Assembly (NCBI GenBank): GCA_017443025.1
Contig: JAFSPG010000016.1
Coordinates: forward strand, 210,109 to 274,108
Origin: Bacteroidales bacterium
Lineage (GTDB): Bacteria > Bacteroidota > Bacteroidia > Bacteroidales > UBA932
Length of the DNA: 64,000 nucleotides
Reading direction: 5' to 3'
The translations under genes and the position numbers were made by a program. The notes under the pieces are model-generated. The model was not told where the DNA came from. It was given only the letters and a program-made list of their open reading frames with translations, and did no database searches. Position 1 is the first letter of the stretch, and every line of letters starts with the position of its first letter. Positions 2,526 to 39,464 of this stretch are shown one piece after another.

Positions 2526-5500
2526 ATGAGTATACTGAAAAAATTGTTATTGATTCCGGTGCTTGCGCTTCTCCCGGCAGTTATGCCTCTGCATGCGCAG
2601 GTTTCCGTTCCGGTGACAGGTACTGTACTCGACGAAACCGGCAAGGCCTTGCCCGGCGCCACGGTCTCCGTGGAAGGTGCTTCAGCCATAGCCGTTTCAG
2701 GGGCCGACGGTAAATTTGCCATAAATGTACCCGGTGAAGAGTCCGTACTTCTTGTCGATTTCCTCGGATACAAGCAGGCAAAAATCAAGGTTGGAAAGCT
2801 CCGCCGCTTCGAGATCAAGCTTGAAGAGGATACGACTTACCTTGACGAAGCAGTCGTAATCGGTTTCGGCGAGCAGAAAAGGTCTGACCTAACCGGTTCT
2901 GTCGCTACTATCAACATGAAGGATGTGGAGAACGCCCCGACATTGGCAATAGACCAGGCCCTGCAGGGCAGGGTGGCCGGTGCCGATATCGTGAGCGTTT
3001 CCGGCGATCCTACCGAGGGCACATCAATCCGCATCCGTGGAACCCGTTCAATCACGGCCGGAAACGAACCCCTTATCGTGGTGGATGGCGTCATGAATGC
3101 CGTTCATGACCTCTCAGACCTTAATGCAGAAGATATCGAGTCGATATCCATCCTCAAGGATGCTTCATCTACTGCAATTTATGGAGCTCAGGGTGCAAAC
3201 GGTGTTATCATCGTCACGACTAAAGCCGGTTCTCCCACAAAGTCAAAGGCAAACGTGACGGCTACAATCAAGCTCGGCTTCTCGCAGCTTGCCCGCAGCC
3301 TTGATCTTATGAACGCGATGGAGTTCGCTACCTACAACAACGACCGCATAGATTTCGCCAAATCCTCAGACGGACTTGTTTATCCGGCCAAGCCGAGTTA
3401 TCCCGAGAAGTATTCTAATCCAGCAGCCCTTGGCAAGGGAACCGACTGGCTGGATGCAATTACCAGGGTAGCCCCTTATCAGCAGTACGGACTTTCGGTC
3501 AGCGGCAATAACAAGCAGACAAATTACTTTGCTTCTATTTCACACGCCAACGACCAGGGTATCGTGAAGGATAGCGGCAACCAGCGTACCACAGCCCGTA
3601 TTACCATCGGACACAGGTTCAACAGTTGGTTAAAGCTCACATACACCGGAAATTTCCTTTATCGTCTTGCAAACAACAACAAGGCTAATATAGGAGGAAC
3701 CGGAGTTTGGAGCGGCGCCGTTTATATTTCGCCTGTTCTTGATACTACAAGCGAAATCAACGATTTGTACAATTATGGCCAGGGCGCGCCATTCAACAAC
3801 CCGCTAATCACCATCAAACAAAGTGAGAATTACAGGAAATCGTTCTCAAATACACATTCGCTTGATTTGGAACTTACTCCGCTGAAGGGCTTGCTCATAA
3901 AGAGTCACAATACTTTCTATAAGTATGATACCCACCTGTACAAGTATCTCCCCGGCACATTGCCCGTGAGGAGACTTGCTGGAACAGGCGGTGAAGTACA
4001 GCGCCAGGACGGCAACATCGCCCAGTTCAACTCCGACAATACCGTTACCTGGAAGAAGGACCTCAAGAAGGTTCATCACCTTGACTTGATGGCCGGTATG
4101 TCGGTTTACTATAAGGAATACGAGTATCAGAGCGTAGTCGGAAAGGGAATGCTGGTTGATGACCTTAAGTGGAACGACCTGAGTGCCATCGGCGACAAGG
4201 ACAATTATTCGCTTTCTTCCTATGAACAGACGACTAAAAAGATGTCGTTCATGGGCCGGTTCAACTACAATTACAAGAAACGTTACTACGTGACATTTAC
4301 CGGAAGGGTTGACGGTTCTTCGAACTTTGCGGCAAATCATAAGTGGGGATTTTTTCCTTCGGCGGCCGTAAAGTGGAATATCTCCAATGAACCCTGGGTT
4401 AAGCGCACCCGCATTTTCCAGGATCTGTCGCTGCGAATGAGCGCCGGTCGTACAGGTAACGACGCCATCACCCCTTATAAATCGCTGCAGCAGTTGTCTT
4501 CATCTACGTCAGGATATCTTATCGGCGACGGGCAGGCAACTTACTATTATCCTTCACGCCTCGACAGCCCGAACCTTACATGGGAAAAGACAGACCTTTA
4601 TAATATCGCCCTCGATATGTCTATTTTGAAAGGGCGTCTTAAAATGACGGCTGAAGCCTATTATTCTTCGACAAAGGACCTGCTCCTGGATGTGCAGAAG
4701 GCACAGCAGACGGGATACAGCAAATATACCCAGAATCTTGGCAAGACGACCAACAAGGGTGTTGAACTGACCATATCTTCTAAGAACATCATCGGAAGAA
4801 AATTCTCATGGACGACAGACTTTACCATCTCCCACAATAAACAGATGGTAGAGAATATCGGCGGTGAATCCGAGGTTGTGGCGATGAAGGACCAGAAGGG
4901 TTATATGATTTACGGCTATAAGGCCGGTTATCCTCTCAATGCCCTTTGGGGATTCCAGTATGGAGGCGTCTGGCACAATGCTCAAGAAATAGCCGATAAC
5001 GACATTACCCATCAGTACGTGGATTATTATGCCAAGCCGTATAAATGTGGACGTCCCAAGTACGTCGACCAGAACCATGACGGAATCCTTGACAATCAGG
5101 ATATAACATATCTCGGCAATTCCGATCCCAAGATATACGGCGGACTCCAGAACAACTTCCATATTTATGGATTTGACCTGAGCGTATTTTTGCAGTATTC
5201 CCTGGGCGGAAAGATTTATAACTATTCCGAGTTCTACATGGCTGGAACATACTGCTCAAATCAGTACAGGTACATGCTCAACTCCTGGCACCCGTACAGA
5301 AATCCGGATTCCAATTATCCGGCAGCAGGTGCCAGCGGCTCAAGCATGCTACCGAGCGATTTCATGATTCACGACGCTTCTTATGTAAGGCTCAAAACCG
5401 TCAGCATCTCTTATCAGTTCGACATGCGCAAAGTCAGCAAGCTGATAAAGAGCCTCTCCGTAGGAGTCAGCGCCGACAACTTGTTCATCTGGACCAAATA

Positions 5501-5624
5501 CAACGGCTTTGATCCTGATGTATCGTCAAAAGTCGAGGATCAGGAATCTGTAATCAGAAGGGCGGATATCGGAGCATATCCAAGGCCTCGCAAGATAATT
5601 GCCACAATCCAACTTAAATTCTAA
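2526..5624 (+). CDS. susC: SusC/RagA-family TonB-dependent outer membrane transporter
   Basis: 1032 aa. It imports oligosaccharide across the outer membrane using TonB energy, with the SusD lipoprotein as lid. Residues 1-25 are a signal peptide ending HAQ. Then come a carboxypeptidase-regulatory-like domain (about 30-100, VTGTVLDETGKALPGATVSV), a plug domain (about 110-235, with EAVVIGFGEQKRSDLTGSV, LIVVDGV and the family hallmark LKDASSTAIYGAQGANGVI) and a long beta-barrel ending in aromatic-rich strands and a terminal Phe. A calcium-loop-like segment (DQNHDGILDNQD, about 859-870) is common in the family. There is no N-terminal STN domain, so direct signalling to an anti-sigma factor is not expected. 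The ATG follows an A/T-rich leader without Shine-Dalgarno. First gene of the operon; SusD starts 6 nt after the stop. The symbol marks family only; the substrate is unknown. Confidence 0.97.
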   Translation: MSILKKLLLIPVLALLPAVMPLHAQVSVPVTGTVLDETGKALPGATVSVEGASAIAVSGADGKFAINVPGEESVLLVDFLGYKQAKIKVGKLRRFEIKLEEDTTYLDEAVVIGFGEQKRSDLTGSVATINMKDVENAPTLAIDQALQGRVAGADIVSVSGDPTEGTSIRIRGTRSITAGNEPLIVVDGVMNAVHDLSDLNAEDIESISILKDASSTAIYGAQGANGVIIVTTKAGSPTKSKANVTATIKLGFSQLARSLDLMNAMEFATYNNDRIDFAKSSDGLVYPAKPSYPEKYSNPAALGKGTDWLDAITRVAPYQQYGLSVSGNNKQTNYFASISHANDQGIVKDSGNQRTTARITIGHRFNSWLKLTYTGNFLYRLANNNKANIGGTGVWSGAVYISPVLDTTSEINDLYNYGQGAPFNNPLITIKQSENYRKSFSNTHSLDLELTPLKGLLIKSHNTFYKYDTHLYKYLPGTLPVRRLAGTGGEVQRQDGNIAQFNSDNTVTWKKDLKKVHHLDLMAGMSVYYKEYEYQSVVGKGMLVDDLKWNDLSAIGDKDNYSLSSYEQTTKKMSFMGRFNYNYKKRYYVTFTGRVDGSSNFAANHKWGFFPSAAVKWNISNEPWVKRTRIFQDLSLRMSAGRTGNDAITPYKSLQQLSSSTSGYLIGDGQATYYYPSRLDSPNLTWEKTDLYNIALDMSILKGRLKMTAEAYYSSTKDLLLDVQKAQQTGYSKYTQNLGKTTNKGVELTISSKNIIGRKFSWTTDFTISHNKQMVENIGGESEVVAMKDQKGYMIYGYKAGYPLNALWGFQYGGVWHNAQEIADNDITHQYVDYYAKPYKCGRPKYVDQNHDGILDNQDITYLGNSDPKIYGGLQNNFHIYGFDLSVFLQYSLGGKIYNYSEFYMAGTYCSNQYRYMLNSWHPYRNPDSNYPAAGASGSSMLPSDFMIHDASYVRLKTVSISYQFDMRKVSKLIKSLSVGVSADNLFIWTKYNGFDPDVSSKVEDQESVIRRADIGAYPRPRKIIATIQLKF

Positions 5625-5630
5625 GGGCCT

Positions 5631-7184
5631 ATGAAAAAGACAATGATAATCACAATGCTGGCCTATGTAGCTGCATCCTGCAACGTTCTTGACGAAAATC
5701 CGTCTTCTTTCGTAGACCGGAATAATTACTTCAAGACCGAAGCGCAGTGCCGTACCGCGGTTAATTCCTGCTATGAGGGGCTGAAATCCATTTATTCCAC
5801 CACGTTGTTTACCCATACAGATGGAACGACTGATTTGGTGATAGTCCCTTCTACGTCGGATGTCAACGCCATACTCGATATTAATCCTTCGCAGTGCAAT
5901 ATTTCAAAGACTCAGTGGAGCGTTTCTTATAAAGCAATCATGTATTGCAACGCCGCGATTGCGGGTATAGAAAAATCGACGACGGTCGACGAGAACGTGC
6001 GCCGCGACCTTCTGGCAGAAGCCAAGACTATGCGTGCGCTGTGGTATTATAACCTGACTTCCCTTTTTGGCGATGTTCCTTTCTACACAGATGACGTTGT
6101 TGACCAGCCCACAATGGACAGGATAGCGCATCTTGGCAGGATGGATGCTGTTGCTACTAGGGCTGCTCTCATTAAAGAACTCCAGGCGTGTTACAGCTAT
6201 GAAGGCGGTGAGTACACAGGGGCTCTTAAAGAAATTCGCGCCTGCGAGATACAGGAGAAGGGCAGGGCAGGATGGGCCATGGGCATGATGATGATAGGTA
6301 AATTGGCCCTGTGGAATGCATATATGGATTCAAATGGTACTGAGGACTGGTTCCAGGTAGCAATCGATGCACTCGAAAAGCTGGTTCCCGTGTACGGAGA
6401 GTTGTCTGCCTATCCTTTATCGGATTTGTATTACAGCGTAAAGGAAACTCCTGAGCGTATTTTTGAAATTCGCCACGCCTACTCGGAAGGAACTCTTTCT
6501 TATGCAGGTACACTTGCCCAGAACTGTATGCCTTCTTACAAGTCGGATACTCAGTTATATGACGGAGTATCCATCCCATGGCTCGGCACAGAAGCCAAGG
6601 TGGGTACCTGCAACCGTCCTACTTCATATTTCTATTCGGCCCTTCAGCCTGATAACGGTGCTGACCTTCGCGTCGATATCAATCAGGGCCGCCGTTGGGA
6701 GGGTACTCCTTTCGTGTCGGGGATTTCACAGCCCTGGATGGGCCCGAAATTCTGGTGCCCGTATATGAAGACAACCTATGATTCGAACAATTATCCTATC
6801 CTGCGTTACGCCGATGCGCTTCTTATGCTTGCGGAGTGCTACCTGGAAAAACGGGATAAGGACAATTTTGAAAAGTATCTGAATATGGTTCGCTCGCGTG
6901 CCGGACTTGCTCCTTACAGCGCAGGCAGCTGGTCTCTTGCTACCCAGACATTGAGGGACGAGCGCGCCCGTGAACTTTTCGGTGAGTTCCAAAGAAAATT
7001 CGACCTCGTCCGCTGGGGTATCTGGTTTGACGCCGTCGAGAACTACTGGAAACCTGAGATGGAAAAACGTAACATCCCTACCAAGGAATTGCCGTGCCAT
7101 AGATATCTGCCCATACCCAATGAACAGGTAGTAAATTCCGGTTATGCCCTTGACAATAAAGAATACAACAATTATGGCCTGTAA
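5631..7184 (+). CDS. susD: SusD/RagB-family nutrient-binding outer membrane lipoprotein
   Basis: 517 aa, a usual length for the family. The signal peptide ends in a lipobox (AASC, Cys17), so the mature protein is lipid anchored at the cell surface, where it captures glycan and closes over SusC. Family landmarks are the N-terminal RNNYFKTEAQCRTAVNSCYEG helix, LRYADALLMLAEC (about 385-400), SRAGL, the ERARELFGEFQRKFDLVRWG helix and the C-terminal PIPNEQVVNSGYALDNKEY. These are the TPR-like scaffold signatures of SusD. The gene starts 6 nt after susC, and the next lipoprotein gene overlaps its 3' end, so expression is coupled. Confidence 0.97.
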   Translation: MKKTMIITMLAYVAASCNVLDENPSSFVDRNNYFKTEAQCRTAVNSCYEGLKSIYSTTLFTHTDGTTDLVIVPSTSDVNAILDINPSQCNISKTQWSVSYKAIMYCNAAIAGIEKSTTVDENVRRDLLAEAKTMRALWYYNLTSLFGDVPFYTDDVVDQPTMDRIAHLGRMDAVATRAALIKELQACYSYEGGEYTGALKEIRACEIQEKGRAGWAMGMMMIGKLALWNAYMDSNGTEDWFQVAIDALEKLVPVYGELSAYPLSDLYYSVKETPERIFEIRHAYSEGTLSYAGTLAQNCMPSYKSDTQLYDGVSIPWLGTEAKVGTCNRPTSYFYSALQPDNGADLRVDINQGRRWEGTPFVSGISQPWMGPKFWCPYMKTTYDSNNYPILRYADALLMLAECYLEKRDKDNFEKYLNMVRSRAGLAPYSAGSWSLATQTLRDERARELFGEFQRKFDLVRWGIWFDAVENYWKPEMEKRNIPTKELPCHRYLPIPNEQVVNSGYALDNKEYNNYGL

Positions 7185-9534
7185 GATAAAAAGCATGATA
7201 TACGCTGCGGCGCTGCTTGTTATCAGCTTCGCCGCCAAGTCCTGTTCGCAGGACTACGAGCTCGACCTGCCTCTGTCATTGAACCGAACGGAGTTAAGAT
7301 TCGCCAGTACAGGTGATACTTATTACACGTTGGTTTATTGTAGGGGAGACTGGACCGCTGAATTGGATGAGCCTGCACCTTGGCTTACTATCTCTCCGTT
7401 GAAAGGTAGCGGTAACGCACAGATTAACTTCACCGCAGAAATGAATGGCGGTGTATCTCGAGGAGTTACATTGACAATTAAAAACGGAAATCTCACGAAG
7501 CAACTATACATTTCCCAGGCCGGCGGATTGGATGAAGGGAGTTACGGCTTCGTAAAGCAGTCAGTTGAGGTATTGAGGGCTGCATGTACCAGTCAGATTC
7601 TGGCTGCTACCAATCTTGACGATCTTACAATTTCGCACGTGAAGGATACTGTCGAGTATGCTTCAGGTCTGGAGGAACATTGGTTGAGCGTTAATCAGGT
7701 GTTCAGCGACAAAGTTATTTTCTCGGTAGACGATAATACTACAGGGGAACCTCGTCAGGCTACTGTCAAGCTGACGTTCCCTCTCGCAAAGTGGGATACT
7801 CCGGTAACGGCCTTTTTTGTAGTAAATCAATCATCGGCAGAGCCTGCTCAAATAGATGCCACTATCGCTTCCCTCGAAGGGAATCCTGTTGAATGGTCGG
7901 ATGAAGACAAATTCGTCATTCTTGATTCCGACGGCCATACGATGTATTCAGCCCAGATAGACCCGGTGCATATTTCCGGACAGTCTGCGATATTTATTTA
8001 TAACAGCGAATCTGTTGCGTCCGGTCTTGAGGCCGCAGTTTATCCGGAGGCTTTTATTACTGCCTGTCAAGACGGCAAAGCTACCGTAAAAATGCCGGAA
8101 AAAGCAGATTTCATTACGTCGCTTGACCGTGCGGCCAGCCTGGGAATAATGGCCGGGACGATATCGGAAGGAGAGGTTGTTCTAAACTCTGCATGTATGT
8201 TGCTGGAGGTTAATATCAATGGCGCAGGATTATTGAAAGATCTTTCTCTGCTGTTTGATTCTCCGGTATGCGGTGAGGGTACTGTCGATGTCAGGGTACA
8301 GACTCCTGTATTTGTTCCAACAGAAGGGAAGAGCAGTAATCTCCTTTCAGTCAATCTCCCTTCCGAAGGAGTTGTCTTGCCGGCAAGACTTTATGTGGCG
8401 GTTCCTGCCGGAAACCTGGGCGGAGTTACCGTAAATGCCAATACTACGCAATGGAGCGGAAGCATCCGCGCTGATTCCCAGCCCTCCGGAGACCCTCACT
8501 CCGTTATTCATACCGAAGAAATTGTGCTCAACATCCCTTCGGCAGCTGAGAATCTGACTGAGGGCGGCAAGTGGGCCAATTGTTACCTGCTCAATGACCT
8601 TTCCGAGAAGATGTACAGCATAGATATCAAGAAGGTTGACGGCAGCGTTCCCGCTAACGACATCACCCGCTGTTCCATTCTGTGGCAGACAAGTCCAGGA
8701 GTTGTAAGCTATCTGAGCATCGATCCTTCTGCCGGAAAGCTTTATTTCCGCAAGAGTCCAGATCTTCCTGGCAATGCGCTTGTCGCAGTATTGAATGATG
8801 CTGGCACAGTACGCTGGAGTTATCATATCTGGGCTCCGGAGTCTGCCGTGAAGGAAGTAGTCTTCGGGCAGTACATCTTTATGGACCGCAATGTGGGTGC
8901 TGTAGCTGCTGCAGCTGTGGACCATTCAGGAAAATCTATAGGAATGCATTATCAGTGGGGAAGGAAAGATCCATTCCCCGCGATGGAAAGCCTTGACGGG
9001 CCAATGAAGCATGGAAAGGTGTATCCCGATCCGATAAGCTTTATGACTGCACAGAACGGAGTCCCCGCTTCAGTTGCCGCCGAAAATCCTACAACATACT
9101 ATTGGGGCAATGACAATTCCGGCGCGGAGGACTGGATTGATACCCCCGACGACAACCTGTGGAAGTCGGTTCCTACGAATTCGAGCCCTTGTCCGTATGG
9201 ATGGGCCGTAGCTTCCAAGGCTGCCTTTGATGAATTTGTTCCAAGGTTGAAAGAGGCTTCTTTCGAGAGCAAAGTCGGTATTGTAATTAACGATGACGAA
9301 GGAAATTCTGTTCTCTTCCCAGTAAGCGGCCAGTACAGGCGCAAAGTCAATGCTTCCGAAGAATTAGCTTCTTCCTCAGAAGGTTGGATTTGGAGCAGTA
9401 CTCCGTACGAGAACGGTAATCTTCACGGGAGCTGGTACCTTCACATCCAGTCTACCGTGAACAACCGCAGAACGGAAAATACATATTCCCAGCGCCGCTG
9501 GGGCAAAAATGTCAGATGTGTCAAAATCAACTAA
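7174..9534 (+). CDS. BACON-domain lipoprotein with C-terminal FISUMP-like domain
   Basis: 786 aa from the ATG at 7174, which gives a charged n-region (ACKIKSM), a hydrophobic core and lipobox AKSC. The upstream in-frame ATG at 7144 lies inside susD and would add a poor leader; ATG 7195 is a possible alternative. An N-terminal BACON domain follows (about 35-120: LSLNRTELRF, WLTISPLKGSGNAQINFTAE, LYISQAGG), a beta-sandwich found in Bacteroidetes glycan-binding surface proteins. The middle is unassigned beta-rich sequence. The C-terminal ~200 residues resemble the Fibrobacter succinogenes major paralogous (FISUMP) domain: FMDRNVGA, GMHYQWGRKDPFP, YYWG, CPYGWAVAS, GWIWSSTPYE, RRWGKNVRCVK. Its place right after susD is where surface glycan-binding proteins (SGBPs) normally lie, so I infer that role. 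Confidence 0.82.
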   Translation: MACKIKSMIYAAALLVISFAAKSCSQDYELDLPLSLNRTELRFASTGDTYYTLVYCRGDWTAELDEPAPWLTISPLKGSGNAQINFTAEMNGGVSRGVTLTIKNGNLTKQLYISQAGGLDEGSYGFVKQSVEVLRAACTSQILAATNLDDLTISHVKDTVEYASGLEEHWLSVNQVFSDKVIFSVDDNTTGEPRQATVKLTFPLAKWDTPVTAFFVVNQSSAEPAQIDATIASLEGNPVEWSDEDKFVILDSDGHTMYSAQIDPVHISGQSAIFIYNSESVASGLEAAVYPEAFITACQDGKATVKMPEKADFITSLDRAASLGIMAGTISEGEVVLNSACMLLEVNINGAGLLKDLSLLFDSPVCGEGTVDVRVQTPVFVPTEGKSSNLLSVNLPSEGVVLPARLYVAVPAGNLGGVTVNANTTQWSGSIRADSQPSGDPHSVIHTEEIVLNIPSAAENLTEGGKWANCYLLNDLSEKMYSIDIKKVDGSVPANDITRCSILWQTSPGVVSYLSIDPSAGKLYFRKSPDLPGNALVAVLNDAGTVRWSYHIWAPESAVKEVVFGQYIFMDRNVGAVAAAAVDHSGKSIGMHYQWGRKDPFPAMESLDGPMKHGKVYPDPISFMTAQNGVPASVAAENPTTYYWGNDNSGAEDWIDTPDDNLWKSVPTNSSPCPYGWAVASKAAFDEFVPRLKEASFESKVGIVINDDEGNSVLFPVSGQYRRKVNASEELASSSEGWIWSSTPYENGNLHGSWYLHIQSTVNNRRTENTYSQRRWGKNVRCVKIN

Positions 9535-9537
9535 ACC

Positions 9538-11784: not shown

Positions 11785-11790
11785 AATATT

Positions 11791-16513: not shown

Positions 16514-16517
16514 ATAG

Positions 16518-17330
16518 ATGAAGAGATTCTATGTAATGTTGGCGATGGCTCTGCTGCCCTTGACTTACTCTTGTGAAAAGGGCGTGGAACAACCCGGAGC
16601 ATTGGAACTTAAGGCTTCAATACTCCAGCTTCCCACAAAGAGCTATCTTGGCGATGAAGAGGGGGGCGTTTTCCCTGTATTGTGGGCGGAAGGAGATGTT
16701 ATCAGTGTCAACGGCACTCTGACCAATCCTCTGACGGCGGCAGCTGCCGGGGTGAGTGAGGCGGAATTCCGTGTTATTGACGCTTCATTGGTTGCTCCCT
16801 ATCATCTTCTGTATCCGGGCGAAGCCGGAGTATCTAACAGTGTAGTGCTTGACGGAATACTCCCGCCGATGTATGCCAGTGGCAGCGATACGGGAGAGAA
16901 CTTTACCTTCCATCAAGCGGCGGTCGGACTGAGATTCAGTATTTCCGGCGAACTCCCCCTTGCCTCTGTAACGCTTTCGGCGCCGGGTGGCGAGAAAATC
17001 ATTGGCCGTTTTGGAATATCTTTTACTGACGGAACTCTTACACCTTCATCTGCGTCTTCAGAATGGGGAAAGATATATTCAACTCCCGCTGATTTGTCGG
17101 AGCCTGAAACGTTTACTCTGTTCATTGCTCCGGGCAGTTTTTCCGAAGGGCTTGTAATAACAGCTGAAAATCCTTCCGGCGACTCAGTTACCTGGCTTTT
17201 TGCCAAGGGATGTTCTCTCCTTGCCGGTAAACTATATACCCTCCCTAATCTTACATTCTCCCGTCCTTTCGGAGGCTGGTATGTACTCCTGGAAGATATG
17301 ACTGAAGATGATGTCACTTTTGAATTATAG
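16518..17330 (+). CDS. Small fimbrillin-like lipoprotein
   Basis: 270 aa. The signal peptide has lipobox TYSC (Cys19). The mature part consists almost only of the domain that forms the N-terminal half of the next two proteins: TKSYLGDEEGGVFPVLWAEG followed by DVISVNG, then LTNPL, a LLYPG turn, an LSAPGGEKIIGRFGISF strand pair and LFIAPGSF. This pattern (Thr-Lys-x-x-Leu-Gly, then W-x-x-GD-x-I-x-V) is that of fimbrillin-like proteins, which in known cases are secreted lipoproteins matured to pilus or surface subunits. Unlike its relatives it has no C-terminal cargo domain. It could be a structural or binding partner for the others. It starts 4 nt after the preceding stop. Confidence 0.75.
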   Translation: MKRFYVMLAMALLPLTYSCEKGVEQPGALELKASILQLPTKSYLGDEEGGVFPVLWAEGDVISVNGTLTNPLTAAAAGVSEAEFRVIDASLVAPYHLLYPGEAGVSNSVVLDGILPPMYASGSDTGENFTFHQAAVGLRFSISGELPLASVTLSAPGGEKIIGRFGISFTDGTLTPSSASSEWGKIYSTPADLSEPETFTLFIAPGSFSEGLVITAENPSGDSVTWLFAKGCSLLAGKLYTLPNLTFSRPFGGWYVLLEDMTEDDVTFEL

Positions 17331-17336
17331 CGAGTT

Positions 17337-19178
17337 ATGATAAATAGATTATTCTTTGTGTGTATTGCGCTCATTGTCGCGTTCTCTTGCAGTAAAAAAC
17401 AGGAAGAGCCGGTGGTAGACAATGGGTTTACGCTGCGTGCCGGTCTGGACGAAGTTTCTACAAGAACGGTTATCGGCGAGAAAAACGGTATGGGCAAATA
17501 CCCGATTTACTGGGTTGATGGCGATGTTATCAGTGTAAACGGTGTTATATCCGATCCGCTTTCGGGCCAGAGCGGCGAGAGTTCTTCGGCTAATTTCAGA
17601 TTTGCCGGCATTCTTGCTCCGGCTTCCATATACAATGTTCTATGCCCGGGTACCACTTATTCTGATAAAGTGACATTCGATGGAATCAGCGTGCCGCTGT
17701 ACGGAAACAGCACTGACCTTTCGGCCGGTGTTTCAATGCGGACTCCGGCTACGGTAGTGCGTTTTGAATACAAGGGCACGGCGACTCTCACTGATATTGT
17801 TGTAACATCAATGCAGGGAGAAAAGATTTCCGGGCCGTTTACTATGTCTAAAGATGGAAGCGGAGCGCTTACCGGCGTCCTGGCTCCTGATGCCGGTGCG
17901 ACCGGCACCATCACCATTTCCTATGACGGCGGGCTCGAGTTGACTCCCGGCGGGAAGACTATTTATTTCGTAATCCCCCCAGGAACATATCCTAAAGGTT
18001 TGCGTGCTGTGGTTAATGATAATACAGGTAGCAGGATGACACTACGCTTTTTCAAAAGTGGAGCCGTCCTGACTGCCGGGCGTGCTTGTTCCTTCCCGGA
18101 AATAACCTATGTTGCGGGGAGTGATGTGGTGATGACAGGTGGCGAGGGATTCGAGCCTATTGATATCGACCTTCAGGAAGGTGCAGGTACAGGAGATATG
18201 GATGCTTCGACAGGCGAAATAAAGGTTTCTCTTAAAGCCGGCACATTCAATATCTGGGCTCCGTCGGCCAGGAAGAGCGTAATGGACGCCGATCCCGAGG
18301 TTAGCGAGCAAAGGTCATGGGCAAACAGCTATGAGTCTGTAGCTGACATGATTAACTGGCTGGACTGCGATGTGATGGGGCTTCAGGAAATTACCGCTAT
18401 GGCATATGAGACCACATATACAAAGAAAAAGGATTATGATGGCGGCGAACACTATCTCAATGATATTCTTACTAATTATGGTTGGGTGATTTACAATGCT
18501 GCAAATACGACATACGACAGCTGGTTCCCAGACAATACCACTGGTAACGGTCTTGGCTCTACAGATGCGATTATCTATAAAAAATCCGTTCTGACACTTG
18601 TGTCGCATGGCCGTTACTGGCTTTCAGGCTCGAGGAAAATTGCTCCTCAGGACGCCGGAGGTGTGGATTACGGAACTAATCGCCCTTGCACGTGGGCTAA
18701 GTTTACCCATAAGGCTAGTGGAAAATCTTTCTATTTTGTAACCACGCATCTTGACCTTCCCAATGCGGGTGGGCCGGATGATGATAATGAGTACGCCCAG
18801 CGGCGAAATGCCAGCGAATTGATTGATTGGTTCATGCCGGAGGTTGCTACAGAAGATATTCCGTCAATCATTTGCGGCGACATGAACTGTACTACTCCTT
18901 CGGCTTCATACGATATCTTGTGTTCAGGGAAGTGGACAGATGTCTATGATGTAATGAAAGCAGACGGCACACTGGATTATACCGAGCGCTGTTATCCGGG
19001 TACAATGAATCTCGACAAGAAGGAAAGCGGCTTGAGCAGCTGGCGCCCCGATCATATGTTCACTTACGGTTGCACTGTGTCTTATTATAAAACAGCCCGT
19101 GAGAAATTTGCCACTAAAGACAGTTCAATGCACTGGCCTTCAGACCATTTCCCTATTAAAATCATCGTAAACTTCTAG
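17337..19178 (+). CDS. Lipoprotein with fimbrillin-like domain fused to an active-site-complete EEP domain
   Basis: 613 aa. Signal peptide with lipobox AFSC (Cys19). Residues ~25-270 are the fimbrillin-like module (STRTVIGEKNGMGKYPIYWV, DGDVISVNG, LCPGTTY, FVIPPGTYPKG). Residues ~300-613 form an EEP domain with all motifs: AGTFN, VMGLQE, TTHLDLP, CGDMN, WPSDH. The EEP part resembles domain 1 of 13773-15527, including the shared DPEVSEQR segment. This places a phosphoesterase at the cell surface on a lipid anchor, complementing the soluble EEP upstream. It lies 6 nt after 16518-17330 and 4 nt before the next gene. Specificity (nucleic acid, inositol phosphate, sphingolipid or phospho-glycan) cannot be read from the motifs. 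Confidence 0.86.
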   Translation: MINRLFFVCIALIVAFSCSKKQEEPVVDNGFTLRAGLDEVSTRTVIGEKNGMGKYPIYWVDGDVISVNGVISDPLSGQSGESSSANFRFAGILAPASIYNVLCPGTTYSDKVTFDGISVPLYGNSTDLSAGVSMRTPATVVRFEYKGTATLTDIVVTSMQGEKISGPFTMSKDGSGALTGVLAPDAGATGTITISYDGGLELTPGGKTIYFVIPPGTYPKGLRAVVNDNTGSRMTLRFFKSGAVLTAGRACSFPEITYVAGSDVVMTGGEGFEPIDIDLQEGAGTGDMDASTGEIKVSLKAGTFNIWAPSARKSVMDADPEVSEQRSWANSYESVADMINWLDCDVMGLQEITAMAYETTYTKKKDYDGGEHYLNDILTNYGWVIYNAANTTYDSWFPDNTTGNGLGSTDAIIYKKSVLTLVSHGRYWLSGSRKIAPQDAGGVDYGTNRPCTWAKFTHKASGKSFYFVTTHLDLPNAGGPDDDNEYAQRRNASELIDWFMPEVATEDIPSIICGDMNCTTPSASYDILCSGKWTDVYDVMKADGTLDYTERCYPGTMNLDKKESGLSSWRPDHMFTYGCTVSYYKTAREKFATKDSSMHWPSDHFPIKIIVNF

Positions 19179-19182
19179 GAAT

Positions 19183-21084
19183 ATGAGAAAGATAATATAT
19201 ACTGTTTCAATCGCTGTCGCGATAGTTTCCTGTTCCAAGGAGAGTGCAAACGTCCCCCAGCGGGAGTTCACTCTTGAAGCTTCGATGCCTGGAACAGACA
19301 CTAAAACCACGCTTGGGGCAAAGAGCGCCGGAGCCTATCCCGTTCTTTGGGCTTCCGGGGATGTAATAACCGTAAATGGAGTAGTTTCCAAACCGCTTGC
19401 TTCCGGGGATGCGGGGGCCAAAACTGCTGTCTTCTCATTTGCTGGCGATGTGTCTACCCCTTTCAATGTACTTTTCGGAGCATCAGCCGGTCGGAGTGAC
19501 GCAGTTGAGATTTCCCAAAAACAAAGTTGCACTCCCGGTACAGTTTGCGGCGGGCCTATGTATGCCGTTGCTACCAGCACGTCATTTACCATGCAACATT
19601 CCTGTGCCATTATTACTCTTCCTGTAACCGGGACAGGAGATATTAGGGGAATTCGTCTGTCTTCTCTTGACGGTACGGCTGTTGCCGGAACATTCCGCAT
19701 GGAAAAAATATCCGGCTCATTTTCCGGAAAGATGATTACGGAGATTCCTTCTTCATATATTGATTTGTCTCTGTCTGGAGGCAAGATGACCCTTTCCGCC
19801 TCGCCAAAGACCGTCAGTTTTGCTGTTGCACCCTCTACTCAGGAAAAGGGTATTTGCATAGAAATGGTTGCAAGCGACGGCTCAATAATGTGCAAGAATG
19901 CTCTTGTGGGAGAAACTCTTGTAGCCGGGACTGTGTATGAACTTCCTTCAACTGCCTTTGTGCCCAATTCTGAGCCGGTTGAGATTATATCTTCTTATTC
20001 CGAGCTTAAGGATTTTGCGGCCAGAGTCGCTGCCGGGGAGCTTCTGCTCAGGGCTCGCCTTGGGGCAAATATCACCGGTGATGCTACCTGGACTCCAATG
20101 GAAGGGTTCAAGGGCGATTTTGATGGCGGCGGATTCAAGATTTCCGGTTTGAGGAAGGCCTTTACCAACGAATTGATCGGTATGGTCAGGAATCTGACAC
20201 TGGAATCAGATATTACCTTAAGTAGCGCTGAAGATTATGTCGGCGATGAAAATAACTCCTGGGCTGGAATTGTAGCCAATCGCTTGTATACAAACGCATC
20301 CGTTATCAATTGTACGACCAAGGGGGCCATCACTGTTAATAATCAATTGGGAAAGGAGATTCGAATAGGAGCCGTTGCAGGATATGCCGCGCGCGGTATT
20401 GTTAACGGTTGCGTCAACGAGGCCACGATAACTGTTTACGGCGATAATTCGGGGAAGGACATTAATGCCGGCGGCTTTATCGGAAGGATGTATTCCAGCG
20501 AGACTGAAATCAAATTATATGGTAATATTAACAGAGGTACAGTCCTGATTGGCGGAACTGTTAAGAATGTTTATGTCGGTGGCGCTGTCGGGAGATGCAA
20601 TGCTCCACATATCCTGACAATAAAAGATAACATTAATATAGGAAATATAACCATAGATGGTGGAACTGTTGTGTCCGGGTCCATGAATGTGGGTGGAATT
20701 GCCGGGCAGGCACTTGATGCTTTTTCGGGCTGTGCCAATTACGGAGCTGTCACGCTCAGTGCATCAACATCCCAGACTCAAAATGTAGGCGGTATCGTCG
20801 GAGCTGTAACAACGGATTCCATATCCGAATGCATAAACGCCGGAACTATTCTTATGGATGGTACGAGTTCAGGAGTTGTGCGTTGTGGCGGTATAGTCGG
20901 AAATGCGAGCGGAGATGCTTCACTTAATGAAATAACTCTGACTAATTGTTCGTTCAGCGGTTTAATTACCATTGATATCGCCAGTCATTCAACCTTATAC
21001 ACCAATGCCTTTACCGGTCTGTATACTACTGGCGACCATACCGAGACGGGCTGTAAGAACTCTGGAAATATTGTTGTGAAATGA
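19183..21084 (+). CDS. Lipoprotein with fimbrillin-like domain and GLUG-type beta-helix
   Basis: 633 aa. Lipobox IVSC (Cys17). The first ~270 residues are the same fimbrillin-like module (TKTTLGAKSAGAYPVLWASG, DVITVNG, FAVAPSTQEKG). Residues ~290-633 are repeats of ~30-40 residues with GFKGDFDGGGFKISGL, CTTKGAITV, CVNEATITV, GGFIGRMY, GGIAGQAL, CANYGAVTLS and VGGIVGAV, the pattern of GLUG-repeat right-handed beta-helices found in large adhesins and surface proteins. No catalytic motif. It is probably a surface binding or scaffold component of this system. The next gene starts within its stop codon (ATGA), so translation is coupled to the EEP-GH97 enzyme. Confidence 0.82.
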   Translation: MRKIIYTVSIAVAIVSCSKESANVPQREFTLEASMPGTDTKTTLGAKSAGAYPVLWASGDVITVNGVVSKPLASGDAGAKTAVFSFAGDVSTPFNVLFGASAGRSDAVEISQKQSCTPGTVCGGPMYAVATSTSFTMQHSCAIITLPVTGTGDIRGIRLSSLDGTAVAGTFRMEKISGSFSGKMITEIPSSYIDLSLSGGKMTLSASPKTVSFAVAPSTQEKGICIEMVASDGSIMCKNALVGETLVAGTVYELPSTAFVPNSEPVEIISSYSELKDFAARVAAGELLLRARLGANITGDATWTPMEGFKGDFDGGGFKISGLRKAFTNELIGMVRNLTLESDITLSSAEDYVGDENNSWAGIVANRLYTNASVINCTTKGAITVNNQLGKEIRIGAVAGYAARGIVNGCVNEATITVYGDNSGKDINAGGFIGRMYSSETEIKLYGNINRGTVLIGGTVKNVYVGGAVGRCNAPHILTIKDNINIGNITIDGGTVVSGSMNVGGIAGQALDAFSGCANYGAVTLSASTSQTQNVGGIVGAVTTDSISECINAGTILMDGTSSGVVRCGGIVGNASGDASLNEITLTNCSFSGLITIDIASHSTLYTNAFTGLYTTGDHTETGCKNSGNIVVK

Positions 21085-23972
21085 AGCGACTTATAAAACT
21101 TATTCTGGCGCTTGGATTGTTGATTCCTAGCATTGCAGAGGCTCAGTCTTTCAAAGTCGGGTCTTTTAACCTATGTACCTCGGGCTCGAGAAAGAATTTT
21201 GTTGAGAAAGGGAAGAAGGGCGTATTTGCCGATCAGCAGAGATACTGGGATAAAAGCGCACCTGCAGTGGCCGATATTATCGCCGAAATGGACTGTGACA
21301 TCCTTGGCGTCCAGGAGGTATGCGACACCATCTGGGGTGTCAAGGGTGATAAAGGCTTGCGCCCTATGGTCGCAGCCCGCGGTCGTGATTATGAGTGGAT
21401 ACTCTATCCAAATACTGTTAAGGGGATATCATACGATGTAGCCATAGCTTACAAGAAAGAGTTGTTCGATACTCTTGCTACCGGCATTTTTTGGACTGGT
21501 GGTCATCCCGATAAACCCAAAACCCGAAAAGGGGAGCCAAAGCATACGTGCAAGCCTCTGGTCTGGGCCCGATTTATTCATAAGCCTTCCGGAAAGGAAT
21601 TCTATTTCATGGATACCCACACCGTCGTGCCGACCAAATACAAGAACGACGAGTGGCCTCGAAACAGGGGAAATATCCTGAACTTACAGCAGATAGCCCG
21701 TTGCGGCGAAGCTCTGGTTCCGGTTGATGTCCCGTCTATCCTTGTGGGAGACCTTAATATCGCACATAATTCCAAAGACTGGCATAATATATCGGATGCC
21801 CGCTGGGAAGATGTATATACCATATTCAAGGAAGAGGGCCGACTTAATACGGACGACCGTGAGTGGGGGACACAGAATACCAAGGACGAAACGGCATGGA
21901 CAAAATGGTATCCTGACCATATCATGCTCAACGGATTCAAGGCAAGCGATTTCAAAATCGAGCGTGGACGTTTTCCAACTGAAGACGGCACCCTGCATTA
22001 CCCTTCAGATCACTTCCCCTTGACGGCTACCGTTGGCTTTGATGATGCTAAGTTGTTTGTGGCAGCTGAAAAGGTCGTATCGCCCGATGGCAGTATTTCT
22101 GTTGAACTTCTGCCTGGAGAAACTTCGGTTTTGTATCGTGTACTCTGCGACGGGGAAGTCGTTGTTAACCCATCTCCGATTTCGATGACTCTTTCAGAGG
22201 GAACTGTATTTGGCGCCGGAAAACCCAAGAAAGTTATCCACGACGGTAATTCCCTTTCATTGCACTATGATGGTTATGCCCTTGAAGTCCGCTCTTTCGA
22301 TGACGGTATTTCCTGGCGATGGACGTCCCAGAAGCGTAAGGCATATAACGTAGTCTCGGAACGGGCGGAGTTCCGTTTTGCTGCAGGTATGCAGACGCGT
22401 TTTTCTTATACTCATAAGAATGGAGATCCTTATCAAGACGATTTTCAGAATCTTTATACTGTAACACGTTTTCCTGTGTGGAGGCCCGGAAAAGCATTGA
22501 GGGATGTGGCTATGGGGCCTGACGATAAACCTGTTCTTCCGGAAAAGGGAGGAAAAGCCCCGCTTGCGGTAGTGCCGGCTCTTGTCGAAGGTTCTTATGT
22601 CAGAATGGTTATTGCCGAGTCGGACGTAGTCTCTTATCCAGGGATGTTCCTTAAACCTTTTGGGAGCGGATTCAAGGCCAAGTTTGCCCCTTATCCGGCC
22701 AAGGAGGAACAGGGCGGAAAGAGAAACCTTCAGATGATAGTTACATCACGCGAAAAATATATTGCCTCGTGCAGCGGGAAGGCTCGTTCTTTCCCATGGA
22801 GAGTTATTTGTATATCTCGTGACGACAGAAAACTTGCTGAGAATAACCTTGTTACCAGGCTTGCTACGCCTTCTTCAGGGGATTTCTCATGGGTAAAGCC
22901 GGGTAAATCGGCTTGGGAGTGGTGGAGCGCTTTTGCCCTGGATAGCAAAGACTTCACCCCTGGAGTCAATACCGCCACATATAAGGCATATATTGATTTT
23001 GCATCCCGTCATGGTGTAGAGTATATCCTGCTTGACGAAGGCTGGGCTGTTAAATTCGCAGATAACCTCTTTGCCGTAGTTCCTGAGATTGACCTCCAAG
23101 AGATTATTCGTTATGGAAAGCAGGAAAATGTCGGTATTATCCTTTGGGCCGGGTATTCTGCTTTTGCGCGGGATATCGAAAAGGTTTGCAAACACTACTC
23201 AAAGCTTGGTGTAAAGGGATTCAAGATAGACTTTTTCGAGCGCAACGACCAGTTGACTCAGGAAGTTATGTATAAAATGGCTGAAACTGCAGCCAAGAAT
23301 AAGCTTATCATTGATTTCCATGGTTGTCCACCTCCCACGGGACTCCAAAAGCGATTCCCGAATGTTCTGAATTATGAGGGTATTTTCGGCCTGGAACAGA
23401 TGCGTAACAGAGCGCTTCCTGCTTATGATATGGTTACATTTGATGTAACGGCTCCGTTTATCCGTTTCCTGTCAGGGCCGGCCGACTATACGCCAGGGGC
23501 CTTCCTTAATGCTACAAAGGAAACATATGCCCCTGTAAAATGCGCCCCTATGTCGCAGGGAACCCGTTGCCATCAGCTGGCAGAATATGTTGTGTTTGAC
23601 GGCCCTCTCCAGATGCTCTGCGACAGCCCGTCTCGTTATGAGGCGGATCCGCAATGCGCAGACTTCTTGTACAGAGTCCCCACGGTTTGGGATGAAACCA
23701 GAGTTCTTGCCGGTAAGGTAGGGGAGTATATTGTCACTGCCCGTCGAAAGGGAAGTACATGGTACATAGGCGCACTTACCGACTGGTCGGCTCGTGAACT
23801 GAGTGTTGACTTGGCAGCTCTCGATTTGAAGGATGCAAGTGTGGAGGCCTGGGAAGATGGGCCGGAGGCTTCCGATAGGGCTTCCGACTGGAAGAAGAAT
23901 TCATTTGCCGTTTCTGCTCCTTTTACTATCCGTCTTGCACCAGGTGGGGGATGGGCTGCTATTGTGCATTGA
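21081..23972 (+). CDS. EEP phosphoesterase fused to GH97 glycoside hydrolase
   Basis: 963 aa, signal peptide 1-22 (AEAQ). Residues ~23-315 are an EEP domain with all motifs: GSFN, LGVQE, DTHTV, GDLN, PSDH. From ~325 a GH97 enzyme begins: N-terminal beta-sandwich (VSPDGSISVELLPGE, NPSPISMTL), a catalytic barrel (SAWEWWSAF, GVEYILLDEGW, IILWAGYSAF, LGVKGFKIDFFERNDQ, NYEGIFGLEQ) and a C-terminal beta domain. GH97 contains inverting alpha-glucosidases such as SusB and retaining alpha-galactosidase-like enzymes. Asp717 in KIDFF sits where the retaining subgroup has its nucleophile, and Glu766 (NYEG) is a candidate acid/base. That favours a retaining, alpha-galactosidase-like activity. The fusion suggests phosphodiester cleavage and alpha-glycoside hydrolysis act on one molecule. 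The GH3 gene starts 1 nt after its stop. Confidence 0.9.
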   Translation: MKRLIKLILALGLLIPSIAEAQSFKVGSFNLCTSGSRKNFVEKGKKGVFADQQRYWDKSAPAVADIIAEMDCDILGVQEVCDTIWGVKGDKGLRPMVAARGRDYEWILYPNTVKGISYDVAIAYKKELFDTLATGIFWTGGHPDKPKTRKGEPKHTCKPLVWARFIHKPSGKEFYFMDTHTVVPTKYKNDEWPRNRGNILNLQQIARCGEALVPVDVPSILVGDLNIAHNSKDWHNISDARWEDVYTIFKEEGRLNTDDREWGTQNTKDETAWTKWYPDHIMLNGFKASDFKIERGRFPTEDGTLHYPSDHFPLTATVGFDDAKLFVAAEKVVSPDGSISVELLPGETSVLYRVLCDGEVVVNPSPISMTLSEGTVFGAGKPKKVIHDGNSLSLHYDGYALEVRSFDDGISWRWTSQKRKAYNVVSERAEFRFAAGMQTRFSYTHKNGDPYQDDFQNLYTVTRFPVWRPGKALRDVAMGPDDKPVLPEKGGKAPLAVVPALVEGSYVRMVIAESDVVSYPGMFLKPFGSGFKAKFAPYPAKEEQGGKRNLQMIVTSREKYIASCSGKARSFPWRVICISRDDRKLAENNLVTRLATPSSGDFSWVKPGKSAWEWWSAFALDSKDFTPGVNTATYKAYIDFASRHGVEYILLDEGWAVKFADNLFAVVPEIDLQEIIRYGKQENVGIILWAGYSAFARDIEKVCKHYSKLGVKGFKIDFFERNDQLTQEVMYKMAETAAKNKLIIDFHGCPPPTGLQKRFPNVLNYEGIFGLEQMRNRALPAYDMVTFDVTAPFIRFLSGPADYTPGAFLNATKETYAPVKCAPMSQGTRCHQLAEYVVFDGPLQMLCDSPSRYEADPQCADFLYRVPTVWDETRVLAGKVGEYIVTARRKGSTWYIGALTDWSARELSVDLAALDLKDASVEAWEDGPEASDRASDWKKNSFAVSAPFTIRLAPGGGWAAIVH

Positions 23973-23973
23973 T

Positions 23974-26097
23974 ATGAACCGCATACTGGATACTATAATA
24001 TTTGTTTTTTTCGTTGCGGCCTGTTCTTCGGTTGAAAAGCACGATGGATATATGCTTATTAGCCAGAGAGAAGGTCCAAGTCTTGGCTACACGTCGGCGC
24101 GGATAATAAGAGTTGACGGCAAATATTTTAAAGACTTGAATGGTGACGGCGTGGTTGAGCCATACGAGGACTGGCGGCTGACCTCTGCTGAGCGTGCCGC
24201 CGATTTGGCTTACCGTTTGCCGGTGGAATACCTTTCGGGACTTATGACTAACGGTCATACCGTGAATGTCCCGGGTATTTCTTCCATGAGCGTTTCTGGT
24301 ATTACCTATAACGGCAAGCCTTATGCAGAAAGCGGAGCAGAGCCATCTGATATTTGCGACAGGCTTTACGATGCACTTGTAAACTTCGATACACGGCAGG
24401 TTCTTCTAGCTCATAGTGACGGCCCTGAAACAATTGCCCGTTGGAATAATAAAGTACAGGCCCTTGTTGAGGCACAGCCTTTCGGTATCCCATGTGCAAA
24501 TTCAACTGATCCGCGAAACGAAATCAAGGCCACGGATGAGTACAATGCCGGAAGCGGCGGAATATGCTCCCAGTGGCCTACTCCGCTTGGCCTTGCTGCA
24601 ACTTTCGATACCACGGTAGTACGTGATTTTGCCGCCACGTTAAAGCGCGAATATCTTGCCCTTGGTTTCCGTACGGCCCTCTCGCCCCAGGCAGATTTAG
24701 CGACCGAACCTCGCTGGAGGCGTGTGCCGGGCACGTTTGGGGAAAATCCTGAACTCGTTCGGGCTATGGCTTCAGCCTATATTAACCAGATGCAGCCTGA
24801 AATAAACTGCATTGAAAAGCACTGGCCAGGAGGAGGCACTGGAGAGGGTGGACGTGATGCCCACCTTGCAATCGGTAAATACGGAGTTTTCCCGGGAGGG
24901 CGTCTGCAAAGCCATATGGATGCTTTTGATTTGAATGCTGCGGGAATAATGCCATACTATACGATTTCGTATAATCAAGATCCTTCTGGCGAAAATGTGG
25001 GGAATAGCTACAGTTCCTATATGATAGATTCGCTATTGCGCCAACGCTATGGATATAAGGGTATTGTATGCACAGATTGGGGTATTGTTCCCGACTATAA
25101 CGGCGATCCACTCACTACTGGAGGGAAGTGCTACGGAGTTGAGGACCTATCCGTCGGCGAACGCGTACTCAAGGCGCTTGAGGCCGGAGTTGATGAGTTC
25201 GGCGGTTCAGTTATGGCTGCCGACATAATGGCCGCATGGAAGATATGGTGTAAGCGAAAAGGAGAAGATTCTGCGCGTGCTCGCTGGGAAAAATCAGCCA
25301 GGAAGATACTTGAATCTATGTTTCGTACAGGACTTTTCGAGAATCCTTATGTAGATGTAGCCCAAGCCGAAGCAACTCTTTCCGATCATGAGGCCTTTGT
25401 CAGGGGTGAAGAAGCTCAGATTCGTTCCGTAGTAATGCTTAAGAATCACGCTGCTGCTTTGCCTGTCGCTCGCGATGCCAAAGTGTATGTGCCTAAACGT
25501 CATATTCCCGGTGTCTATTCCATGACGGGACGCCAAAAGAAGGCTCCGTATGTAGGGTATTCTGTAGATACATCGGTGGTTGCTAAATATTATCGTCTTG
25601 TTGACTCTCCCGAGTTGGCTGATTTCGCCCTAGTCGCAATTACGGAGCCTGAAGGCGGCATAGGATATAAGGACGGACAGTACATGCCTATATCGCTTCA
25701 ATATTCTCCTTATACGGCTTCGAATGCTCGGAAGGGAGAGCGCTCGTATCGCGGAAAGACTATTCGTGTTGAGAACGAAACCGACCTGTCTTTAGTGAAG
25801 GAAACCAAGGCTGCAATGGGAGAAAAGCCGGTAGTGGTGCTGCTTTCAGCCACGCGCCCGGTAGTTATGGAATTCGAACCATGGGCTGATGCAATTCTCG
25901 TAGCCTTCGGGGTGCGCAGTAAGGCTTTTCTCGAATTGGTCTCCGGTGGCCGGCAGCCCTCCGGCCATCTGCCTATGCAGTTCCCGGCTTCTATGGCCGA
26001 AGTTGAACGCCAGTTGGAGGATGTCCCCCAGGATATGGTACCTTGGACTGATGCAGATGGCAATATTTACGATTTTGGTTTCGGATTAAATAAATAA
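23974..26097 (+). CDS. GH3 beta-glycosidase lipoprotein with EF-hand-like loop
   Basis: 707 aa from ATG 23974, one base after the upstream stop. An earlier in-frame ATG at 23833 lies inside the GH97 gene and is rejected. Lipobox VAAC (Cys16). An EF-hand-like 12-residue loop, DLNGDGVVEPYE, follows near residue 50, then the GH3 barrel with KHWPGGG and GEGGRDAH, nucleophile Asp368 in VCTDWG, and the GH3 C-terminal domain (SVVMLKNH, PSGHLPMQFP) ending in DFGFGLNK. GH3 enzymes release beta-linked monosaccharides from non-reducing ends by a retaining mechanism. Probably periplasmic or outer-membrane attached, the last step of this operon. It has a clear paralog at 35119-37338. No Fn3-like C-terminal extension is present. 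Confidence 0.92.
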   Translation: MNRILDTIIFVFFVAACSSVEKHDGYMLISQREGPSLGYTSARIIRVDGKYFKDLNGDGVVEPYEDWRLTSAERAADLAYRLPVEYLSGLMTNGHTVNVPGISSMSVSGITYNGKPYAESGAEPSDICDRLYDALVNFDTRQVLLAHSDGPETIARWNNKVQALVEAQPFGIPCANSTDPRNEIKATDEYNAGSGGICSQWPTPLGLAATFDTTVVRDFAATLKREYLALGFRTALSPQADLATEPRWRRVPGTFGENPELVRAMASAYINQMQPEINCIEKHWPGGGTGEGGRDAHLAIGKYGVFPGGRLQSHMDAFDLNAAGIMPYYTISYNQDPSGENVGNSYSSYMIDSLLRQRYGYKGIVCTDWGIVPDYNGDPLTTGGKCYGVEDLSVGERVLKALEAGVDEFGGSVMAADIMAAWKIWCKRKGEDSARARWEKSARKILESMFRTGLFENPYVDVAQAEATLSDHEAFVRGEEAQIRSVVMLKNHAAALPVARDAKVYVPKRHIPGVYSMTGRQKKAPYVGYSVDTSVVAKYYRLVDSPELADFALVAITEPEGGIGYKDGQYMPISLQYSPYTASNARKGERSYRGKTIRVENETDLSLVKETKAAMGEKPVVVLLSATRPVVMEFEPWADAILVAFGVRSKAFLELVSGGRQPSGHLPMQFPASMAEVERQLEDVPQDMVPWTDADGNIYDFGFGLNK

Positions 26098-39461: not shown

Positions 39462-39464
39462 GGC

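Follow-up and report, generated by a model that had tools for sequence, protein, structure and literature searches.

Loci of the Bacteroidota that encode a SusCD pair are usually taken as carbohydrate systems from their glycoside hydrolase (GH) content. In Flavobacterium, the systems PUSI and PUSII (PusCD) are described in PMC8115612 as SusCD-like pairs with phosphodiesterases or phosphomonoesterases in place of carbohydrate-active enzymes (CAZymes), and the passages concerned contrast them with polysaccharide utilization loci (PULs), which bear CAZymes. An endonuclease/exonuclease/phosphatase (EEP) protein in a table of the same paper is classed there as an orphan. Here, a SusCD locus was analyzed in a 64,000-nt stretch of DNA from a Bacteroidales bacterium (contig JAFSPG010000016.1), called the window below; all coordinates are in window numbering. 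Its core is an operon of twelve open reading frames (ORFs), from a SusC gene to a GH3 gene (genes 1-12), in which five EEP domains occur next to glycosidases. We lean slightly towards reading this operon as a hybrid of a PUL and a phosphate-utilization system, the predicted target of which would be a glycoconjugate with bonds of the phosphoester, alpha-galactoside, acyl-ester, and beta-glycoside types.

The operon and its EEP domains

The operon occupies positions 2526-26097. All twelve ORFs lie on the plus strand and either overlap or are separated by at most 6 nt, which bears out the first-pass annotation of twelve genes in one direction with gaps of 10 nt or less. The SusCD pair, surface-binding-type lipoproteins, GH97, and GH3 listed there were likewise recovered with Pfam and NCBIfam. 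Pfam families found in the operon were Plug and CarbopepD_reg (SusC), SusD, BACON, DUF5689, Exo_endo_phos (genes 6, 9, and 11), GH97, and GH3. As in PULs, susC and susD homologs adjoin each other and glycoside hydrolases are encoded in the same operon (GH97 and GH3), with GH39-, GH35-, and GH28-like genes downstream. Mechanical start assignment over-extended three ORFs; by our own reading the tandem EEP gene (EEPab) starts at 13773, the GH3 gene at 23974, and the BACON gene probably at ~7174. Lipoboxes were read by eye in SusD, genes 3, 4, 5, 8, 9, and 10, and GH3, which are thus predicted lipoproteins, and ordinary signal peptides in EEPab, gene 7, and the EEP-GH97 protein.

EEPab (gene 6, 13773..15527) carries domains a (~13839-14726) and b (~14769-15524), two Exo_endo_phos stretches with intact catalytic motifs; no lipobox was seen, and the protein is read as periplasmic. 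Gene 9 (17337..19178) encodes a lipoprotein with domain d (Pfam 3.5e-9, motifs intact) and is a candidate surface phosphoesterase. In gene 11 (21081..23972) domain e (Exo_endo_phos 3.3e-9) is fused to a GH97 domain (5.8e-89), and from its ordinary signal peptide this protein is also read as periplasmic. Domain c is encoded by gene 7 (15524..16513), which gave no match in a Pfam scan; its EEP identity was recognized by similarity to the neighboring EEPs. The earlier count (four EEP proteins, five domains) stands, while enzyme status for all five does not, since the gene 7 domain lacks both a Pfam match and the catalytic residues.

The EEP catalytic motif set comprises N, E, H, GDxN, and SDH. 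None of the 13 orthologs of domain c retains the catalytic Glu, the His, the GDxN Asp, or the SDH Asp. Domains a, b, d, and e retain E, H, GDxN, and SDH in 54 of 54 rows, the N position being uncovered in one partial b row; six partial EEP domains were dropped from this table by a 75% coverage rule. The 13 c rows had a mean column identity of 73%. The median pairwise ratio of nonsynonymous to synonymous substitution (dN/dS) was 0.097 for c, compared with 0.109 for a, 0.105 for b, 0.144 for d, and 0.098 for e. The value for c is rough, as it comes from 10 rows (L059, L061, and L078 left out) with 19 of 45 pairs usable and a median dS of ~1.9; one partial a row (L090) was left out of alignments A1 and A2. 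Given the complete loss of catalytic residues and the low dN/dS, gene 7 is best read as a conserved pseudoenzyme under purifying selection, and domain c would be a clean example of an EEP fold maintained by selection after loss of catalysis. Domain c also illustrates that the family can drop catalysis and persist, and the fold might have been reused throughout the operon for binding of glycans or of non-phosphate esters. With the motif residues retained in every row of the other four domain types, we consider such wholesale reuse very improbable.

A profile of domains a, d, and e was searched against the PDB. 3mpr and the mannosyl-6-phosphatase 4c1r ranked jointly first (4.7e-25), followed by 3g6s (2.8e-17) and 3l1w (1.4e-12); weaker matches were nocturnin (1.4e-9), a Ccr4 complex (1.3e-7), 3teb (3.4e-7), TDP2 (7e-4), a sphingomyelinase (1.2e-3), and ExoIII (0.04). 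Domain b matched 3g6s (1.3e-35) and 4c1r (1.3e-31). Of the solved structures for which an activity is named, 4c1r matches the EEPs best; it is presumably the product of gene BT3783 from a yeast-mannan setting. This ranking would suit phosphomonoesterases that strip phosphate off an otherwise ordinary glycan, in which case the target might be a plant or yeast polysaccharide with light phosphorylation; several of the downstream GH genes, being of plant type, fit the same idea. Four intact domains and a conserved dead one would, however, seem to exceed the needs of a single trimming step, the lipoprotein EEP suggests an early cut at the surface, and related loci contain GDPD and calcineurin-type phosphoesterases. 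We regard simple phosphate trimming as a doubtful explanation, although one to be taken seriously.

Tight grouping of the EEP domains with secreted nucleases, which the first-pass annotation had set against its own proposal, was not seen. Scavenging of nucleic acids or nucleotides by secreted nucleases, with the glycosidases serving a co-occurring substrate, would be in line with the profile matches to the Ccr4 complex and TDP2 and with weak matches to the NCBIfam MnuA and ExeM/NucH nuclease models. The highest of these among genes 1-10 were obtained for gene 9, at 34.4 and 23.6 bits, far under the cut-offs of 185 and 300, and an NCBIfam scan of gene 11 gave no ExeM/NucH or MnuA match. Moreover, 4c1r was ahead of the nucleic-acid enzymes and the sphingomyelinase by many orders of magnitude in the profile search, and EEP domains are fused to GH97 and to GH97-GDSL. 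On the profile ranking and the fusions with GH97, the nuclease reading was rejected as the main explanation and is retained as an unlikely rival.

The relationships of the five domains were assessed in a tree built by a quick method, with long branches and with sister-locus EEPs drawn from a selected subset of loci, short or weak matches being omitted. Domains b, c, d, and e each formed one side of a branch, with support of 94, 87, 99, and 99, respectively, and a further group (98) joined a and e. A group with support 90 united domains a, c, d, and e with six EEP domains of other loci, of which two are in this genome. Since b stands apart from this group, the locus on this tree combines two EEP lineages. 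The EEP genes are also strongly clustered: 4 of the 15 PF03372 stretches of the genome lie within the operon, where 0.16 would be expected from the other 11 (Poisson P ~2e-5). Because a, c, d, and e share one group, duplication likely underlies this clustering.

Domain fusions, related SusCD loci, and the predicted substrate

The GH97 domain of gene 11 aligned with the retaining alpha-galactosidase 3a24 over nearly its whole length (2e-172), and the Asp changed in 5e1q is present. By sequence it is alpha-galactosidase-like. We take 3a24 and 5e1q to be BT1871 and the conserved Asp to be the nucleophile. Judged by similarity within one open frame, the EEP-GH97 fusion was found in 11 genomes (this one counted), a GH97-SGNH fusion in genome G158 (L091:14347-17379), and a GH3-GH97 fusion in G181 (L062:4430-9199). 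A GH97-GDSL-EEP protein is encoded by a single 1128-aa frame in G023 (L065:8468-11851, minus strand); its EEP is of the b type, and its GH97 scored 994.4 bits, above the cut-off of the NCBIfam alpha-galactosidase equivalog NF053844. In the vicinity of that gene are suf, feoB, and ispE-like genes and a distant SusCD pair. Because GH97, EEP, and esterase domains are joined repeatedly and in several orders, the fusions argue that alpha-galactoside, ester, and phosphoester bonds would sit in one substrate. Calcineurin-type phosphoesterases occur in the related loci of G158, G048, and G181:C79.

Association between EEP genes and this type of SusCD pair was examined across the genus, where SusD homologs at E 1e-30 were present in 78 of 300 genomes. 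Twenty test loci (SusD 42-47% identical) were compared with 20 controls (33-39% over the first part), both hand-picked from the listing and not random. In the first stretches, an EEP gene was found in 18 of 20 test loci and 3 of 20 controls (Fisher p 3.4e-6). After upstream extension the counts were 20/20 and 3/20 (p 2.6e-8); both test misses proved to have an EEP immediately outside the stretch. Of the 17 control misses, 16 were extended likewise, and none gained an EEP (the contig of the seventeenth, L170, had ended). The latter p value is too small, because some control loci are near-copies: three of them share 99.9% identity across 14.9 kb, and a further pair is 92% alike. One genome contributes two test loci and four genomes contribute two control loci each, so that the number of controls overstates how independent they are. 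Given the choice of loci by hand and this dependence among controls, the rise from 18 to 20 left our confidence unchanged. The EEP gene lay upstream of SusC in 17 of the first 18 test loci. In the quick tree most sister-locus EEPs belonged to a clade other than that of the operon's EEPs, and the sampled upstream EEPs formed a third EEP clade. SGNH homologs (38-47% identity) were present in 8 of 20 test loci. The idea that gene 4 (DUF5689) marks loci with EEPs or nucleases was rejected, as similar proteins occur in 20/20 controls, 17 of which showed no EEP. Between EEP and SusC, several sister loci have a gene of ~350-380 aa (L151:1401-2480, L155:957-2009, L159:1387-2439, L145:2124-3269); the one member scanned (L159:1390-2436) had no Pfam match. 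In two others, the EEP before SusC makes up the C-terminal portion of an open frame of 909-911 aa (L191:956-3682 and L192:835-3567, both minus strand).

Both other SusD genes of this clade in the same genome, C17:240637 and C15:96965, also sit with EEP genes. The C17 locus (L068, C17:215000-234999, and L184, C17:235000-254999) encodes two EEPs, a GDPD-GH2 fusion, a PgtP/GlpT-like MFS transporter, a glycerol 3-phosphate (G3P) dehydrogenase-like protein, and HAD- and NPP-like phosphoesterases, downstream of related SusCD and DUF5689 proteins. Its predicted activities place glycerophosphodiester chemistry beside a GH2 domain. In G120 (L145), a GDPD gene lies downstream of the SusCD pair. Taken across these loci, the gene content suggests that a whole SusCD transporter clade in one genus, with members in ruminants, may handle phosphoester-bearing glycoconjugates. 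The first-pass annotation had proposed a target with both phosphoester and glycosidic bonds. That much agrees with the fusions, with the calcineurin-type phosphoesterases in divergent versions of the locus, and with the GDPD and GlpT-like genes of the related locus; the candidates it had named, a teichoic acid-like polymer, a glycosyl-inositol phosphate, and a glycosphingolipid, were not told apart.

From the observed gene content, conservation, fusions, loss of catalytic residues, and purifying selection, we infer a scheme of cell locations, bond specificities, and order of steps. The glycoconjugate would be bound by surface lipoproteins, and the lipoprotein EEP of gene 9 would cut phosphoester links at the surface or free a phosphorylated part. 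Fragments would be imported by SusCD. In the periplasm, EEPab and EEP-GH97 would strip phosphate and alpha-galactosyl-type residues, the SGNH hydrolase would remove acyl groups, and GH3, GH35, and GH39 enzymes would trim the remainder. The dead EEP of gene 7 would probably bind the phosphorylated fragment or pair with an active EEP.

Several observations weigh against the hybrid reading. The GH28-like and GH39-like genes, together with the GH10- and heparinase-like members of the locus in G011, suit an ordinary plant polysaccharide, and so do the TIG, NHL, and GH3 genes in sister loci. In the operon itself, no gene for glycerol-phosphate or phosphosugar transport or for a corresponding dehydrogenase was recognized in the Pfam and NCBIfam scans, and the MFS and G3P dehydrogenase matches of the C17 locus are below the NCBIfam cut-offs. 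The GH97 domain scored 737.9 bits against NF053844, under its cut-off of 800, and the DUF5689 proteins in control loci without an EEP are a further point on this side. The EEP, GH97, SGNH, and GH3 types would all be of use on an alpha-galactosylated teichoic acid or a glycerophospho-glycolipid, and they might also serve for a phosphorylated plant glycan. Room is left for plant polymers as the substrate because of the GH28-, GH10-, and heparinase-like genes and the TIG and GH3 genes in sister loci. A more specific proposal is put forward tentatively: the locus may be a dedicated pathway of ruminant gut bacteria for a phosphodiester-linked glycoconjugate, for example a teichoic or lipoteichoic acid with alpha-galactosyl and ester substituents, or a glycerophospho-glycolipid. 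In such a pathway, the lipoprotein EEP would make the first surface cut, the dead EEP paralog would bind phosphorylated fragments, and the EEP, esterase, and GH97 fusions would process the imports.

Conservation of the locus and its neighboring genes

Homologs of EEP-e at E 1e-20 were present in 16 of 300 genus genomes, this genome counted; the genus is probably Cryptobacteroides. The set of EEPab, EEPc, EEPd, and the GH97 gene was found jointly in 11 of 299 other genus genomes, so the gene order that the first-pass annotation wished to see elsewhere does recur, mostly unchanged. It is the same in G011, G248, G098, G263, G221, G282, G267, G253, and G005 and rearranged in G254 and G181. The locus is divided among contigs in G282, G267, G253, and G005, and in G221 the contig ends inside EEP-GH97. 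A separate gene 8 was not seen in G263, G221, G282, and G253, and EEP-e is absent from G181, where GH97 is fused to GH3. Divergent versions of the locus occur in G158, G048, and G201 and more distant ones in G284 and G181:C79. G142 has the front of the locus only (SusC to gene 5, with 63-78% identity for SusC, SusD, and gene 4); its contig ends there, no EEP match was found, and it was left out of the count. Related front parts lie on short contigs in G103 and G010. In an order-wide search with profile A1, 6 of 393 genomes matched, this genome at 2e-157 and the other five at 2e-21 to 3e-26. A pattern-led scan of 84,980 species genomes turned up 31 loci, including two short fragments, and every title reads Bacteroidales or Bacteroidia. 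Of the 31 titles, 12 mention a rumen or rectum (from roe deer, goat, or water deer), some from one genome; RUG isolate names we take to denote rumen genomes. A HipA-like gene lies inside the orthologous locus in two genomes (L081:3739-5013 and L085:4861-6195, both minus strand).

Upstream of the operon, a plus-strand beta-helix protein gene (1..2339; Pfam Beta_helix over 105-2336) has homologs upstream of SusC in G011, G098, G282, G267, G253, and G254, and, judging from an open frame in the stretch before it (L067), it seems to continue past the left window edge. Gene 1 (2526..5624) encodes a SusC/RagA TonB-dependent transporter (TIGR04056, 805.6 bits; cut-off 368), gene 2 (5631..7184) a SusD lipoprotein (Pfam SusD_RagB 1.9e-26), gene 3 (7144..9534 before correction of the start) a BACON-domain lipoprotein, and gene 4 (9538..11784) a DUF5689/BACON lipoprotein (DUF5689 6.7e-9) with no match in a PDB search at 0.1. 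The lipoprotein of gene 5 (11791..13773) has no Pfam match and resembles the upstream beta-helix protein in sequence. Gene 8 (16518..17330) encodes a lipoprotein that consists of the N-terminal module common to genes 9 and 10 (alignment A4), and gene 10 (19183..21084) encodes a GLUG-repeat-like lipoprotein with the same module (Pfam Glug below cut-off). For this module, within 16518-21084 and in related loci, a PDB search at E 1 found nothing, and all 30 members scanned lacked a Pfam match. The GH3 lipoprotein of gene 12 (23974..26097) matched both Pfam GH3 N and C, with 9ul7 and then SN243 as best PDB matches.

Past a 169-nt gap, plus-strand genes run on to 37338. The first is a 553-aa lipoprotein (26267..27928) with no match in Pfam or NCBIfam and with homologs in G098, G263, G254, and the divergent G048. 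In G098 (L077:1837-5574, plus strand) it shares a single 1246-aa open frame with GH3, which suggests that the two may act together. It is followed by a GH39/GH42-like protein (27935..29359; Pfam; homologs in G011, G248, G267, G253, and G048), a GH35-like protein with DUF5597 (29363..30829; homologs in G011, G248, G098, G263, G282, G267, G253, and G284), and a GH28-like plus DUF4886 protein (30826..32847; Pfam). The DUF4886 half of the latter is found in G248 and G282, fused there to the FAD oxidoreductase, and the GH28-like half had no counterpart among the fetched related loci. Next are an SGNH/GDSL_3 hydrolase (32847..33920; uncharacterized PDB entry 4lhs, 2.4e-56), an SstT-like sodium:dicarboxylate family symporter (33907..35118; Pfam SDF 3.7e-72; SstT 2.6e-21, below the NCBIfam cut-off), which could hint at released amino acids, and a second GH3 lipoprotein (35119..37338; homologs in G011, G248, and G282).

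A displaced member, the plus-strand FAD oxidoreductase gene (43736..45715), has homologs 52.6-72% identical in 9 of 16 genomes compared, two of them assigned to PF12831. It sits inside the locus in other genomes and is split off here by a minus-strand sugar-acid cluster. This cluster (37358-43186) has MFS, lactonase-like, RraA-like aldolase, SDR, and galactonate dehydratase-like genes and a plus-strand IclR-type regulator, all below NCBIfam cut-offs; at E 1e-20, none of them had a homolog in the 22 retrieved stretches. In the related loci retrieved, several of which stop before this part, homologs of downstream members were counted in 12 genomes for SGNH, 8 for GH35, 7 for the symporter, 5 for GH39, 4 for the 553-aa protein, and 3 with a clear counterpart for the second GH3. 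The unit is larger than twelve genes: the GH39-like, GH35-like, SGNH, SstT-like symporter, second GH3, and FAD oxidoreductase genes recur beside the operon in other genomes. The same-strand continuation to 37338 with its displaced member at 43736-45715, the dead domain, and the occurrence of EEP and GH97 as one protein in 11 genomes had all been missed in the first-pass annotation.

Comparison with known systems

A text search of open-licence PubMed Central articles found no paper on EEP in PULs, mannosyl-6-phosphatase or BT3783, mannose-6-phosphate with SusD, or utilization loci for glycosylinositol phosphorylceramides or teichoic acids; slash-written family names are unsearchable there, and the result is weak evidence of absence. 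If the hybrid reading is correct, sugar-phosphate polymers or lipids, and their phosphorus, would be a new nutrient class for these bacteria. The locus supplies testable enzymes for bonds that lie outside CAZyme annotation.

The mannosyl-6-phosphatase 4c1r belongs to the same EEP family, shares the top rank among solved matches to the a/d/e profile, and is close to domain b. Domains a, d, and e, however, form a divergent subfamily with strong matches only in this genus, and GH92 and GH76 had no match among the scanned genes. With the GH97 alpha-galactosidase (3a24, 5e1q) the locus shares a near-full domain alignment and the conserved Asp, whereas its GH97 is fused to an N-terminal EEP domain and stays under the equivalog cut-off. 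Like the Flavobacterium systems as described in PMC8115612, the operon pairs SusCD with phosphoesterases, as far as EEP domains count as such; unlike them, it has GH97, GH3, and other GH genes inside the locus and thus departs from the absence of CAZymes by which those systems are set apart there. Its SusCD pair, lipoproteins, and glycosidases in one operon are those of Bacteroidota PULs in general, from which its several EEP domains, its conserved pseudoenzyme of the same fold, and its EEP-GH fusions distinguish it.

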